DNA from: Syncephalis plumigaleata
Lineage: Eukaryota; Zoopagomycota; Zoopagomycetes; Zoopagales; Piptocephalidaceae
Direction of reading: 5' to 3'
Assembly: GCA_025201365.1 (NCBI GenBank)
Contig: JAIXMF010000098.1
Location: 1 to 40,118, forward strand
DNA length: 40,118 nucleotides
Below are positions 10,201 to 36,640 of this stretch, piece after piece (the first letter of the stretch is position 1; the number at the start of each line of letters is the position of its first letter). The notes below the pieces were generated by a model. The model was not told the DNA's origin. It was given only the letters and a program-made list of their open reading frames with translations, and did not search any database. Both the position numbers and the translations under genes were made by a program.

Positions 10201-13200
10201 TGATTATGACGGAATGGACATACAAAGTAAGTTCTTTACTTGATGCTTCTTTTTGTATATTATACTAATGCATATGCATATAGGGTAAATACTAAATAAC
10301 TCAATTGATTGACCATGACATTTAACAATAACATCCCAATGAAGATCTGATATACACGAGCATAGTATACTAGGTATGATGCAACTATTATCTACAAGGC
10401 ATCTTTGTCAAATACAAAGTCGAGTCAAGTTAAATCAATTACTACGCGAGTCAACACAACAACAACAACGCATGATGATCATTGATATGCTACGCCTACG
10501 AATACTACTTCAATTGCAGACATTAGATGATGCAACACCATTCTACATACAAGAATGTCTATCGGTGATGGAGTATATATGGCGTATAGATGGTTTCCAT
10601 CAATCTAGCATTGATTGTCTACTCAATGATAATGTCGTCATTGCCTATTTCCTAGCTACTAATTATCGGGACGATCAACAAGACAATCTCGTTGAAGGTC
10701 GAATATCCCAGATGATTACTTATTGTATCCTTATGCTGTATACATATGTCTATTATTATTATTACTATTATACGTATACTTAACTATTACTATTCCTATG
10801 ATAGATGTTCTCTTCATTTGTTGGCGTACACAAACTATTCAGACACTTCCGATGCATCTACGCCAATCACTAGGTCCATGGGCATTATATGTATCTACAA
10901 CCACCACGGCAAGTTTATTGGATTATGAAGAGACTGCCATTGTATTGCAAGTACTTGGTCCTATCATTGAAGACTCTAGTTTAATGGCTATCATGGAGCG
11001 TTTACTTAAAAGCTCATGGCCATCTGAGGCCACACCAATCATTGTAAGACTTATGGGCAATCTATTCGCGTTAATGGCGGGTCGACAAGATACGATGCCG
11101 ATAGTTAGAAATAATGCTGAATCTTTATTACAACTATGGCGACAATCGACAGATGAGATCCTAGACGAGGTCATGTTAGTGGTGGTAGCGGCCACCTCTC
11201 CTTTACTATTCGCCAATGCATCGACTATTGTGTATGAGCGTAGTATTCATTGTCAAAAGATATTTGCACCTACATTGTCTACTATGCCATTTCACTTGCA
11301 AGACAATGATATAGAACGACTATTAGTTGATGCAACATCAGTTCGATTAGAATTACTAGTTATTGCGGCTACCTTAGATGGTCAATTACGTAGCAAAGTG
11401 GCTAGACTACTCAATACGAATCATTTGTCAGCAAGTGTGTCATTAATTGATCTGGTCGAATTCACCACAAGATATACACAACTATACTGTCCATTACATA
11501 TTGTTGAGATGGAACATGAGACAGACGAATTAGTATGGTATTCCGATACAAATGATGAAGCCATTCAATCAGTTTGCATGCTTATGAACCGTATACTGCA
11601 TACTATTCTGACATCTTCCACACATCGTTCACAAGTACAACAAGCGATAACCCTATTACAACGATGGTGGCCATTTTCTACTTTGGAGTATAGACGACAA
11701 TGCTTGTTGGAACTACAAAGAGGATTGCAACATTCGAATAGCACAATCATAATGGAATTAGTCAGTCATTTACTAGTACATCAAGATGAATCATTACATC
11801 CAATCTATACTCAAGTAGTTGATGCAGGCATAAGAGCAATTACTAGTATGACAATGATACCAGAATCGATTAATGCAGCATTAGGTAAATAATTAGATAT
11901 TTGTATTAATAATATTTACTAATCAATATATATATATGTATATTGCTAGTGATCCTATTGAATCCAAGTTATTCCCTTGTTGTTGATGGAACATTAGTAG
12001 AAGGTCTACTTGTTACTATAACTACTCAGTTGGACAAGTCACCACAAGGATTACGTGTTGTACGCGTGTTATTTGATCTATTGCATAAGCACAATGATAC
12101 TAAGGTAATTGTATGTCTATACTAAATGTCATACACTAATCATGCGATATAGTCATTGAATGAACAAGTTACACGATGGATTGAGCAACTGGTTGTGCTG
12201 CCATTATCGTGGCTTTCAAATGGCAAATATCGTGCTGAATTACTAGAACTACTACTAGCATTATCCGATTATGGTGCAACATCGATATTCTCATCGACAC
12301 TAGTCGATCTACTTATGCCACATTATACGGCGTCATTATCATTGGCCGATCAATATCAACTAGCTTTTCTATGGCATTACGAGCGATCAGAGAAGGAGGA
12401 ACCGATGTTGGTGCACGCTCTTCAATGGAGTCCACATCCCAATATTACACGTACAGTCACACCATTACTGCATGTCACTAGTACACCCGAGCAGGTAGCT
12501 GCTGTTCAAGCACTACTAAATGATATCGATCGTGAACGTATGTGGCATACAATACGTCACTTCCCTATCACACGTTGTATCGATGCTCGAGTGATTAATA
12601 AGGATGAGGAGAACAGCAACGAGAATAATGATCGTCTCTATGATCCACTATACTTTTTGTCAATCTTTTCATTTCTAGCCTCGCTTAATGGTGTTGTACC
12701 TACTAGAATGTGGGTAGAGACACATGCCTTAGGCTTAGCGGTAGTGTCACTATCTGCCAATGATGATATGTTACGTCGTGTGGCCTATACACTATTGGAT
12801 CAATTGTTGCCTGTATTACAGGTAATAGCTAGTGTTTAACTTGTTACATGAGTGTCACTAACTAATGAATGTACTAGGCGAGTGATGACTGGAAGGAACG
12901 ACGTCAAGTGCTCTGGCTTCTAGTCTCGCTTAAGAGTAGTATTCCACAGCGGGATCCATTGCCTGCACGTCTACCCATGCTTATTACTCAGTTTGCCGCA
13001 CATGCAATTAAACTAGCACTGACACCATGGCATTACATGTATCCTCTAGTCAATGGTTTCTTATTACAACGACCTTGTCTAGATCTAGAGGTAAGCATCT
13101 CGTTTATTATCTCGCTTATTCAATTAATCCAATTATTATTAGGATGTGCCAATGTTCTATAGTCTATTCCATGCGGCGACACCTGATGTCAAACGTCGTA

Positions 13201-32809: not shown

Positions 32810-35800
32810 ATGTCGCGTCATCGCAATATACGTAACCTCACTGCTGATGGTAGTTTATTAGTATATGTATATACAGAGTAGAATTTAACAAGTATTATTG
32901 TTATTGTTATTGCTAGCCGAATACGACAATGACTACGATGAAGAATATGGCGATGAATACGAAGAGGTTCCAGAACTAACAGACGAACAAGAGGGTATTT
33001 ACCAGATGGAAATGATGGATATATATATGCTTGTTTGCTTACCTGCATGGTTTACAGAGGATATGCAATTAGCTATGGTAAAAGTACGTTCGCTACTAGA
33101 TGATAGTACAGCTTTTACGGATGCAAAGATTCGTGAAACACTTTGGTATTATTATTTCGATGTCGATCAGGCGGTCGATTGGCTACTACGTATGTATTAT
33201 TACGCTACTTGACTACTACTACTACTACTACTACTACTGTTGCTAATATGAGATATATCTATATGTATTAGAGGAGCAAGCGAAAATGAACAAGAAGGCT
33301 GCTACGACATCAGCAGCTAAATCTAAAAGTAACACTACGGGTAGGTTAAATTGTATAATAATTTCGAATTGTATATATATGCTATTGTGACATAATGGGG
33401 AGTATATGCGTATACATGAATATATATTTGTGTATGTATGTATGTGCACATACAAAATACGCAACATGCAGTGATTTATTGTAGTATTGGATATCTGACA
33501 GGCGGCAGTCATAGGCGGAGACAATACGACTACAACTTCTCCAAGTATACTGGAAGACTGTTCCGCAACTACAATGTCCACAGTACCAGTACCATCTAAT
33601 ACGCCTTCCATCAGTTCACTAAGCGATCTATTAAATCGTAGTGCAACTATTGGAAGTACAGGTTTACGAGGTCTTGCTTCCTTCTCATCCCATGCTACCC
33701 CTTCATCTTTACCATTATCCAGCTTGAATACTCTTCGTGATAAATTGGCTCATTCCCAGAATACTACACGGGGAGTGTCTACGTCAAGTGGTCATGGCGG
33801 TAGCAATAGTGCTAGTGGTACTGGTCAGACATTATCGGGATTACGACAATTGGCAACTACGCATGGTGGAAACAATTCAAGTTTAGCGGCTATCGCCGCA
33901 GTACGTGCTAATCTCAACAGCACTAATGTAAAATTACCATTACTTGCGAAACAGTCAAGTAAACCGAATCAAACGACAACTTGTTCGACATCTCCCATCT
34001 CGCTATCCTCATTAGCACAACCATCTATATCACCTATAGTATCCAATATGTCTACTTCATTAGTAAAAGAGCCACTAAGGAAGCATGACACGATCACCAA
34101 TGTCGACACTACGACGACTATGACCACTGCCACTGTGACTGCCAGTCAGCCAATGAACGACTGGATTGCTGCACCCTCATTATTTGCCTCTTTTGTATTT
34201 GCGAATATTTCTACTTCACATTGTCCTTTGGATGAATCAACAATTGCATCATTATTAACATTTCCCTCTGTGTTGAAACCATCATCAATGGCAACACATT
34301 ATAATACAGGCAAAGCATCGACGAGTAGTGCGCAAAAGGGAGCGAAACAAGCTACACCCACTGCTCAGAAACCGTTTAAATTCGATCGACCAAGTCCCGA
34401 TGATGTCGTATTGGCAGCGCAGTCACAGCGTGGTCGTAATCAAGGTGATTCCTAATAGTATGCTATTATTATTATTTAATAATTAGTTAATTATTATTAT
34501 TATTGTTATTAGTTAATAAAACAAAGGATACGAAACTGGCTAATGATGATACCTCTCAATTCGAGATGGACATGGCCAGTCTAAATATCAATGTTGCCAC
34601 GACCAAAGATGCCAATGAAGCAATGCCCGTGAAACGTACACCGAAACAAGGAAAGATCGATGTGCTAGGAGAGTTGAAGAAACGCGCACGATCCAACATT
34701 AACCTGATTGTTATTGGTAGTTCATATACACGATTATACTAGTGTATTGCGCTGACTAATCCCACTTGATATTCATAGGACATGTTGATGCGGGTAAGAG
34801 TACTCTATTGGGACATTTACTCTATTTACGAGGCAACATCACCGAACATATATACAAGAAATATCCTTTATTACATAATTGAAATAGTCAAGTTATAGTC
34901 ATTAACATCATGAATGATAATGTATACGAATGAGAAAGATGCACAGAATATTGGTAAAGGATCATTTGCACATGCATGGGTGCTAGATGCTACTGAAGAG
35001 GAACGATCACGGTAAGTTACATTGGATCGAGTAATGACTTTATTGCTAATTAGAATGTTTGACAGTGGTATTACCATGGATGTAGCGATTACTCATTTAG
35101 AAACGAAACATCGCCAGTTCACTCTATTGGATGCACCGGGACATCGTGATTTCGTGCCAAGAATGATTTCTGGTGCAGCTCAGGTATTTATGCGTCATTG
35201 ACATGTTTGCAGTGTATTATCAACTAATGAACCTACTGCGTATAGGCTGATGCCGCCATTCTAGTGATTGATGCATCCAGGGGTGGATTTGAAGCAGGAT
35301 TCAGTCAATTGGGACAGACACGCGAGCATGTGATACTCGCTCGTAGTTTAGGCATTCAACAGCTGATTGTTGCCATTAATAAAATGGATACGGTTAGTAT
35401 TAATGATGTTATTATATTGAATGATATTCGACGCTCATACAATCACGACTATGCTGTACGTATATGTATATTTATATACATTAGGTTGATTGGTCGGTGG
35501 ATCGATTTAACGAGATTAAGGAGCAGTTGAACTCGTATCTGATTCAGGTGGGATTCAAGCCTAATGCATTGACATTCGTGCCATGTAGTGGTATGAGTGG
35601 TGAGAATCTATTGGCACGCAATGAACAATCATCGAATCTCAATTGGTATCAAGGACCTACGGTAGCCGAAGCTATGGGTGAGTTGCTGTAATGATAATAA
35701 TATAGAATGCTAATGCGCACACCTATAATGTCTAGATCAATTCGCACTTCCAGAACGTGCAATTGACAAACCATTCCGTCTACCATCAGTTGATGTGTTC

Positions 35801-36640
35801 AAAGGTGCCGTACAAGGAGCAGGTGGCATTTCCATTAGCGGACGTATTGAAAGTGGTCATGTACAAGTGGGCGATGAGATTATGATTAGGCCAGGCGATG
35901 AATTATGCACTGTTAAAGGTAAGCAATAGAACGATGATTGTTTATTTAACACTATTACTAATGATTATTACATTCGACTATATTCAACTGTAGCGATGGA
36001 AGTGGGAGATGAATTTCCAGAATGGGCTGCTGCCGGTGATACTGTTACATTAACGGTATCCGGTACAGATATGATTCATTTTGGGTGAGTTTCTCTTTTA
36101 CTATTGCATCTATCTATACTTACATGATGACTATATGTATAAACAAGTGTTGGTACCATTCTATGCTCTCCACTATCACCTGTACCTGTAGTATCGCATT
36201 TCAAGGCAAGGATTATGGTATTTGAACCGACTATACCAATTACGATTGGTTATCCGGTAAGTAAACACAACGAGCATAATGATGAATAGCGTAGATTAAT
36301 GATGGTGATGATGACGACGACTAGACGGTATTATTCCATCATAACTTGAATGTCAGTGCCACTATCTCCAAGTTGGAAGCAGTGATTGACAAATCAACGG
36401 GAGAGATCATCAAGAAGAATCCAAGGTAACATATATGAAGAAGGAATACTCGATCATTAACCGTATTGATTCATTTGTTAAATACTTAGACATTTACCTA
36501 AATCATCGGCTGCTCTTGTAAATATCCAAGTGGAACGTCCCATTTGTCTTGAATTGTTCAGTGCATCCAAAGAATTGGGTCGTATTACCCTAAGGAAAGA
36601 TGGTAATACGATTGCTGCGGGTATTGTTGTCGGTAAGTAG
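32810..36640 (+). CDS. HBS1: HBS1, ribosome-rescue translational GTPase
   Basis: eRF3/EF1A-like GTPase that works with Dom34/Pelota to release stalled ribosomes. My join: 32810-32849, 32917-32994, 33058-33189, 33272-33340, 33509-34444, 34513-34716, 34779-34860, 34928-35011, 35066-35183, 35246-35392, 35485-35677, 35736-35918, 35994-36084, 36148-36256, 36325-36425, 36490-36640, giving 905 residues. N-terminal HBS1 domain: [11 protein letters not shown], an acidic [12 protein letters not shown] run and [19 protein letters not shown] Ser/Thr-rich linker ends in [12 protein letters not shown], typical of Hbs1. GTPase motifs: GHVDAGKST (G1), RGITMDVA (G2), DAPGHRDF (G3), NKMD (G4). Beta-barrel domains follow ([26 protein letters not shown]). 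The intron 34861-34927 is AT-AC, U12-type; intron 32995-33057 is a multiple of three without a stop. Confidence 0.92.
33213..33239 (+). repeat. (CTA)n microsatellite inside an HBS1 intron
   Basis: About eight CTA units lie within intron 33190-33271 of HBS1. Confidence 0.9.
34861..34927 (+). other. U12-type AT-AC intron in HBS1
   Basis: The intron begins ATATCCTTT, a full match to the minor-spliceosome AT-AC donor consensus, and ends GTATAC. A branch-like GTCATTAAC at 34898-34906 matches TTCCTTAAC at 7 of 9 positions, 22 nt before the end. No GT occurs between the G1 motif exon and the in-frame TGA at 34879-34881 that would keep the frame. Splicing at these ends joins HIYKK to [17 protein letters not shown], the conserved Hbs1 segment after G1. 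Confidence 0.82.

Follow-up and report, generated by a model that had tools for sequence, protein, structure and literature searches.

The question raised by this locus is whether the HBS1 gene of this fungus carries an intron that is removed by the minor (U12-type) spliceosome, and whether the remainder of the genome encodes the parts on which such splicing would depend. We analysed a window of 40,118 nucleotides (the whole stretch of DNA under study), which corresponds to C382:1-40118 in an assembly of 32.6 Mb and 383 contigs. Judging from the sequence, we assign a probability of roughly 0.95 to the reading that nucleotides 34861-34927 are a U12-type spliceosomal intron of the AT-AC subclass within HBS1.

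As to the identity of the gene, both an HBS1_N domain and an EF1A-like GTPase that lies nearest to HBS1 were found. The spliced frame of 486 amino acids aligned through residues 28-483 with residues 250-705 of HBS1L at equal lengths (507 bits), compared to 357 bits for the runner-up chain, an EF1A. The stretch matching the N-terminal domain was assigned to this gene as an upstream exon (Table 1). A total of 12 HBS1 introns were located between 33190 and 36489, comprising 11 GT-AG introns and one AT-AC intron; the last ten were checked by translation and the first two by motifs only, and the count excludes a further intron near 33340-33500. GTAAG or GTGAG began five of the 11 GT-AG introns.

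Table 1. Positions of HBS1 features within the window.
Feature	Position	Strand	Basis or remark
HBS1 N-terminal domain PF08938, 42.3 bits	32889..33209	+	profile match
Translated HBS1 part, 9 GT-AG introns and the putative AT-AC intron, stop 36638-36640	34515..36640	+	
Upstream exon, GTPase G1 motif (G)HVDAGKS to IYK	34779..34860	+	
Putative U12-type AT-AC intron in HBS1, 67 nt, phase 2	34861..34927	+	sequence signals and homologous join
5' splice site ATATCCTTT	34861..34869	+	matches U12-type consensus in full
Branch-site-like TCATTAAC	34899..34906	+	last base 21 nt before intron end
3' splice site AC	34926..34927	+	AC end of the putative HBS1 AT-AC intron
Downstream exon, 27 protein letters, (R)	34928..35011	+	

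The U12-type donor consensus has T as its ninth base, after RTATCCTT, and the U12-type branch-site consensus is TCCTTAAC. The eight-base donor rule RTATCCTT is given in an excerpt of PMC2846911. The HBS1 intron reads ATATCCTTTATTACATAATTGAAATAGTCAAGTTATAGTCATTAACATCATGAATGATAATGTATAC and follows the pattern ATATCCTTT...TCATTAAC...TATAC. When the HBS1 frame is left unspliced, an in-frame TGA is encountered at 34880-34882, and when 34860 is joined to 34928 the frame is kept, with 27 residues reading across the junction. Through phmmer, residues 4-152 of the joined 153-amino-acid piece were found to align without gaps to residues 287-435 of HBS1L (5lzw). The sequence-only reading had proposed an AT-AC minor intron with a perfect U12 donor at this place, and both proposals were confirmed at the level of predicted gene structure: the sequence is as it was described, the homologous join is gapless and the donor is a full match. 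Its proposed U12-like branch site agrees with seven of the eight letters of TCCTTAAC and ends 21 nt before the end of the intron. By reading, a polypyrimidine tract was not seen between the branch site and the intron end. RTATCCTT was found eight times in the window, compared to 3.14 expected, a count attained in none of 100 shuffles, while RTATCCTTT with one mismatch permitted showed no excess (27 compared to 25.9). We infer that the segment is spliced out of the RNA.

Introns with the same signals were sought across the whole genome, in which the strict pattern TATCCTTTN{15,45}CCTTAAC gave 26 matches compared to 4 for the reversed control; in 23 of these 26 the base before TATCCTTT was A or G. 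Many of the matches are copies of one another, and when grouped by eye they represented 18 distinct loci. An A or G preceded TATCCTTT in 16 of the 18 (L002-L027), with nine AT and seven GT donors, an AT share of 9/16 that may be raised by a strict pattern favouring AT-AC. At least one in-frame open join was available in 15 of the 16 loci, the exception being L008, for which there was none under the 75-nt rule; the chosen joins fell 10-30 nt past CCTTAAC in 15 of the 16. Two further candidates, L007/L018 and L015, were rejected as U12-type introns on their TT beginnings; L007 was also without an open join, and L015 had joins only at 55 nt beyond the branch motif. In a smaller motif census of 123 kb, made up of the window and 31 loci, the counts did not clearly exceed those of the reversed control for either the strict (4 compared to 2) or the loose pattern (6 compared to 7), and all four strict matches were inside the window.

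Because open joins may arise by chance, eight of the 16 loci were compared with Pfam or PDB, and homology spanning the join was found in five of the eight: DCP2, SMC3, RPC1 and a formin with AT-AC ends, and FHIT with GT-AG ends. The alignments were gapless over 106 residues for DCP2 (L016), 51 residues for RPC1 (L024) and 113 residues for FHIT (L026). For SMC3 (L003), 125 residues were gapless against the best chain, while a second chain showed a single-residue gap some residues ahead of the join. For the formin FH2 domain (L011), residues 5-56 matched profile positions 302-353 at equal lengths; this short piece scored 29.8 bits, below the Pfam cut-off of 34.8, while a longer piece reached 52.7 bits with sides of unequal length (85 compared to 82). 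In L014, an LsmAD match lay entirely past the join, and for L009 and L013 a significant match was not found in Pfam or PDB. It was also noted that the FHIT homologue (C373:395503-395547) has an apparent 5-nt microexon, TGGAC, between a GTAAGT...CCAG intron and the U12-type GT-AG intron; the 113-residue alignment includes this microexon.

Two additional intron-like segments were noted. On the plus strand of the window, positions 10725-10804 resemble a U12-type intron of 80 nt with GTATCCTTA, ACTTAAC and an AG end, which links two long frames in phase; a Pfam match was not found for the three frames around it. Locus L037:2395 (+) may hold an additional AT-AC intron with a CCCTTGAC branch motif.

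Among the minor-spliceosome snRNAs, a U6atac candidate was detected at C1:977157-977339 on the minus strand (L001:1501-1683), with a score of 33.7 bits, only just above the gathering score of 33, an E-value of 1.7e-5, and the best score of its clan at that place. The candidate is 183 nt long compared to 126 model positions. By reading, it contains AAAGGAGAGA, has TATATA about 30 nt upstream and closes with a run of T; its end pairing, GTGTTGA/TCAACAC, was also present in the predicted fold. At the place of the AGC of the Rfam consensus, which we take to be the catalytic triad of U6atac, the candidate reads GGC, and the seventh pair of its end helix is A-U and not U-A.

The Rfam models for U12 (42 of 1338 candidates scored) and U4atac (48 of 522) gave no match at an E-value of 0.001, in searches of limited sensitivity for which a control genome gave no signal. 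Matches to the U12 core pattern were fewer than in the control (26 compared to 62), as were those to the U12 Sm-site pattern (7 compared to 19). The U4atac pattern predicted from U6atac gave a single match (L028) and none in the control; this match was taken as chance and rejected, as it had no GGGG block and, by eye, no K-turn, and cmscan reported no snRNA there. Using cmscan, an snRNA was not found in 18 of the 21 loci derived from the U4atac and U12 core patterns (three near-identical copies were omitted), nor in five of the six U12 core matches without a locus and five of the seven Sm-site loci (two copies were omitted). These snRNA searches score top candidates only, and absence from the genome does not follow from them; U11, U12 and U4atac are presumably present. 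The snRNA set predicted from the HBS1 intron was recovered as to U6atac and not as to U12 and U4atac, at this limited sensitivity.

Among the minor-spliceosome proteins, the PDCD7 profile (PF16021) matched one exon at 29.5 bits and two joined exons at 49 bits. PF18036, which we take to be the SNRNP25 domain, matched two exons at 34.4 and 20.1 bits and their joined product at 69.9 bits. SNRNP48 (PF05253) and CENATAC (PF14968) had no match in the genome in an exon-by-exon search of limited sensitivity; as the profiles were read exon by exon, the absence of either protein does not follow. The proteins that had been predicted include PDCD7, which was found, and SNRNP48, for which PF05253 gave no match. 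Overall, the results support in part the expectation that minor-splicing parts are encoded across the genome.

These findings bear on the possibility that the AT-AC intron is excised by the major (U2) spliceosome. A few U2-type AT-AC introns are described in an excerpt of PMC8280824, and the HBS1 branch motif is an imperfect U12 branch site. However, the HBS1 donor is the full U12 consensus and a TATCC donor occurs in none of the 11 located GT-AG introns of the gene; elsewhere in the genome, introns that share this donor have CCTTAAC branch sites placed at comparable distances, and the genome encodes U6atac, PDCD7 and SNRNP25. Excision by the major spliceosome was therefore considered improbable.

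We further examined whether the true intron could end in GT-AG or GC-AG, with the AT-AC reading having been forced by homology. Excisions of at least 30 nt were enumerated with a first base at 34783-34889, a last base no later than 34984, an open product and FAHAWVLD in frame; 1717 joins satisfied these rules, and each was scored as the mean global BLOSUM62 score against three references. Among joins with GT-AG, GC-AG, AT-AC, AT-AG or GT-AC ends, the 34861/34927 join ranked first at 162.3, while the best GC-AG join scored 122.7 and the best GT-AG join 70.7, both with the loss of conserved GTPase sequence. No GT-AG or GC-AG join in this range gave a fitting alternative. The alternative has one point in its favour: the same 67-nt excision shifted to first bases 34863-34866 scored 168.0, 168.0, 168.0 and 165.0, slightly above the AT-AC join, and the shift to 34862 ties with it. 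The gain with shifts of two to five bases arises mainly because a tyrosine then suits the family. However, the termini of the five shifted excisions (AT-GA, TC-AA, CC-AT, CT-TG and TA-CG) include no known splice pair. Since shifted excisions match or outscore the AT-AC join, homology alone does not set the exact ends; homology sets the length and place of the intron, and the splice signals its ends. GT-AG and GC-AG alternatives were rejected for their lower scores and their removal of conserved sequence, and an intron with such ends is very improbable. Of the readings tested, only U12-type AT-AC agrees with the protein as well as with the splice signals.

That positions 34861-34927 are an insertion, an assembly error or the mark of a decayed gene, as the stop within them in the unspliced frame could suggest, was rejected as similarly remote on two grounds: the open spliced frame with its 507-bit match to HBS1L, and a second contig that has the same intron structure. 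This second copy (C46:234600-235380, L051) has 99% identity over a 781-base query. Within the intron the copies differ only at 34897 and 34898, with the donor, TCATTAAC and AC identical, and by reading the sole difference in the flanking exons is a synonymous GAT to GAC change at 34940.

In minor splicing, U11 and U12 bind the donor and the branch site together, and U6atac then takes the donor. At HBS1, U11/U12 would recognise ATATCCTTT and TCATTAAC jointly, U6atac would displace U11 at the 5' splice site, where its AAAGGA could pair with the donor UCCUUU, and splicing in phase 2 would link the exon that ends at 34860 to the one that begins at 34928. The duplex of the U6atac candidate with the HBS1 donor had an energy of -6.3, and 29.5% of random 15-mers from the window were equally good; two U2-donor duplexes served as controls, a correctly positioned one with -1.5 and a second that was displaced by 2 nt. 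Because the duplex energy fails to discriminate from random sequence, this pairing is a consistency argument only.

CENATAC serves AT-AN introns in humans. It was noted that AT donors exceed GT donors nine to seven here while CENATAC (PF14968) gave no match; in humans the AT-AC share is approximately 24-26% according to excerpts of PMC8280824 and PMC10639083. The base ahead of CCTTAAC in the 16 distinct loci was G in four, A in seven and T in five. A speculative reading, which we regard as unlikely, is that the lineage has a reduced and divergent minor spliceosome, in which AT-AC introns are unusually common, CENATAC is absent, T is not preferred before CCTTAAC and the GGC of U6atac is perhaps offset by U12. 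Should the divergence of U6atac and the lack of CENATAC be borne out, the lineage would offer a natural test of the parts that AT-AC splicing needs.

The human minor spliceosome consists of the U11/U12 di-snRNP and U4atac/U6atac.U5, with PDCD7 as U11-59K and SNRNP25 as U11-25K. As in humans, U6atac and homologues of PDCD7 and SNRNP25 were found here; unlike in humans, there was no match to SNRNP48 or CENATAC in the profile search. Among fungi, Table 2 of PMC2846911 gives one AT-AC U12 intron in Rhizopus oryzae and eight to nine in Phycomyces blakesleeanus, together with U12 spliceosomal RNAs. The RTATCCTT donor rule and the AC end are common to those introns and the present one, while the gene and the genome differ. 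Excerpts of PMC10639083 give 205 minor introns for Rhizophagus irregularis and 249 for Basidiobolus meristosporus, both fungi outside Dikarya with minor introns, as here; they also state minor introns for Spizellomyces punctatus and Neocallimastigomycetes, and describe convincing support as absent from Ascomycota and Basidiomycota. All four minor snRNAs are reported there for Rhizophagus, whereas here, among U6atac, U12 and U4atac, only U6atac was detected. No paper connecting HBS1L with a minor intron and U12 came up in a search of the paper library. As far as these excerpts (PMC10639083, PMC2846911) extend, the literature already contains minor introns from several fungi outside Dikarya, and the present case is a well-supported further example. 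It extends by one the patchy set of genomes that retain minor splicing, with introns, one snRNA and two proteins named, and a gene predictor restricted to GT-AG introns would break or truncate HBS1, DCP2, SMC3 and RPC1 in this genome.

Lastly, several loci were noted to be present nearly unchanged on two contigs, including C382 and C46 and pairs such as L008/L010 and L016/L019, and these duplicates resemble what a partly phased diploid assembly would contain.
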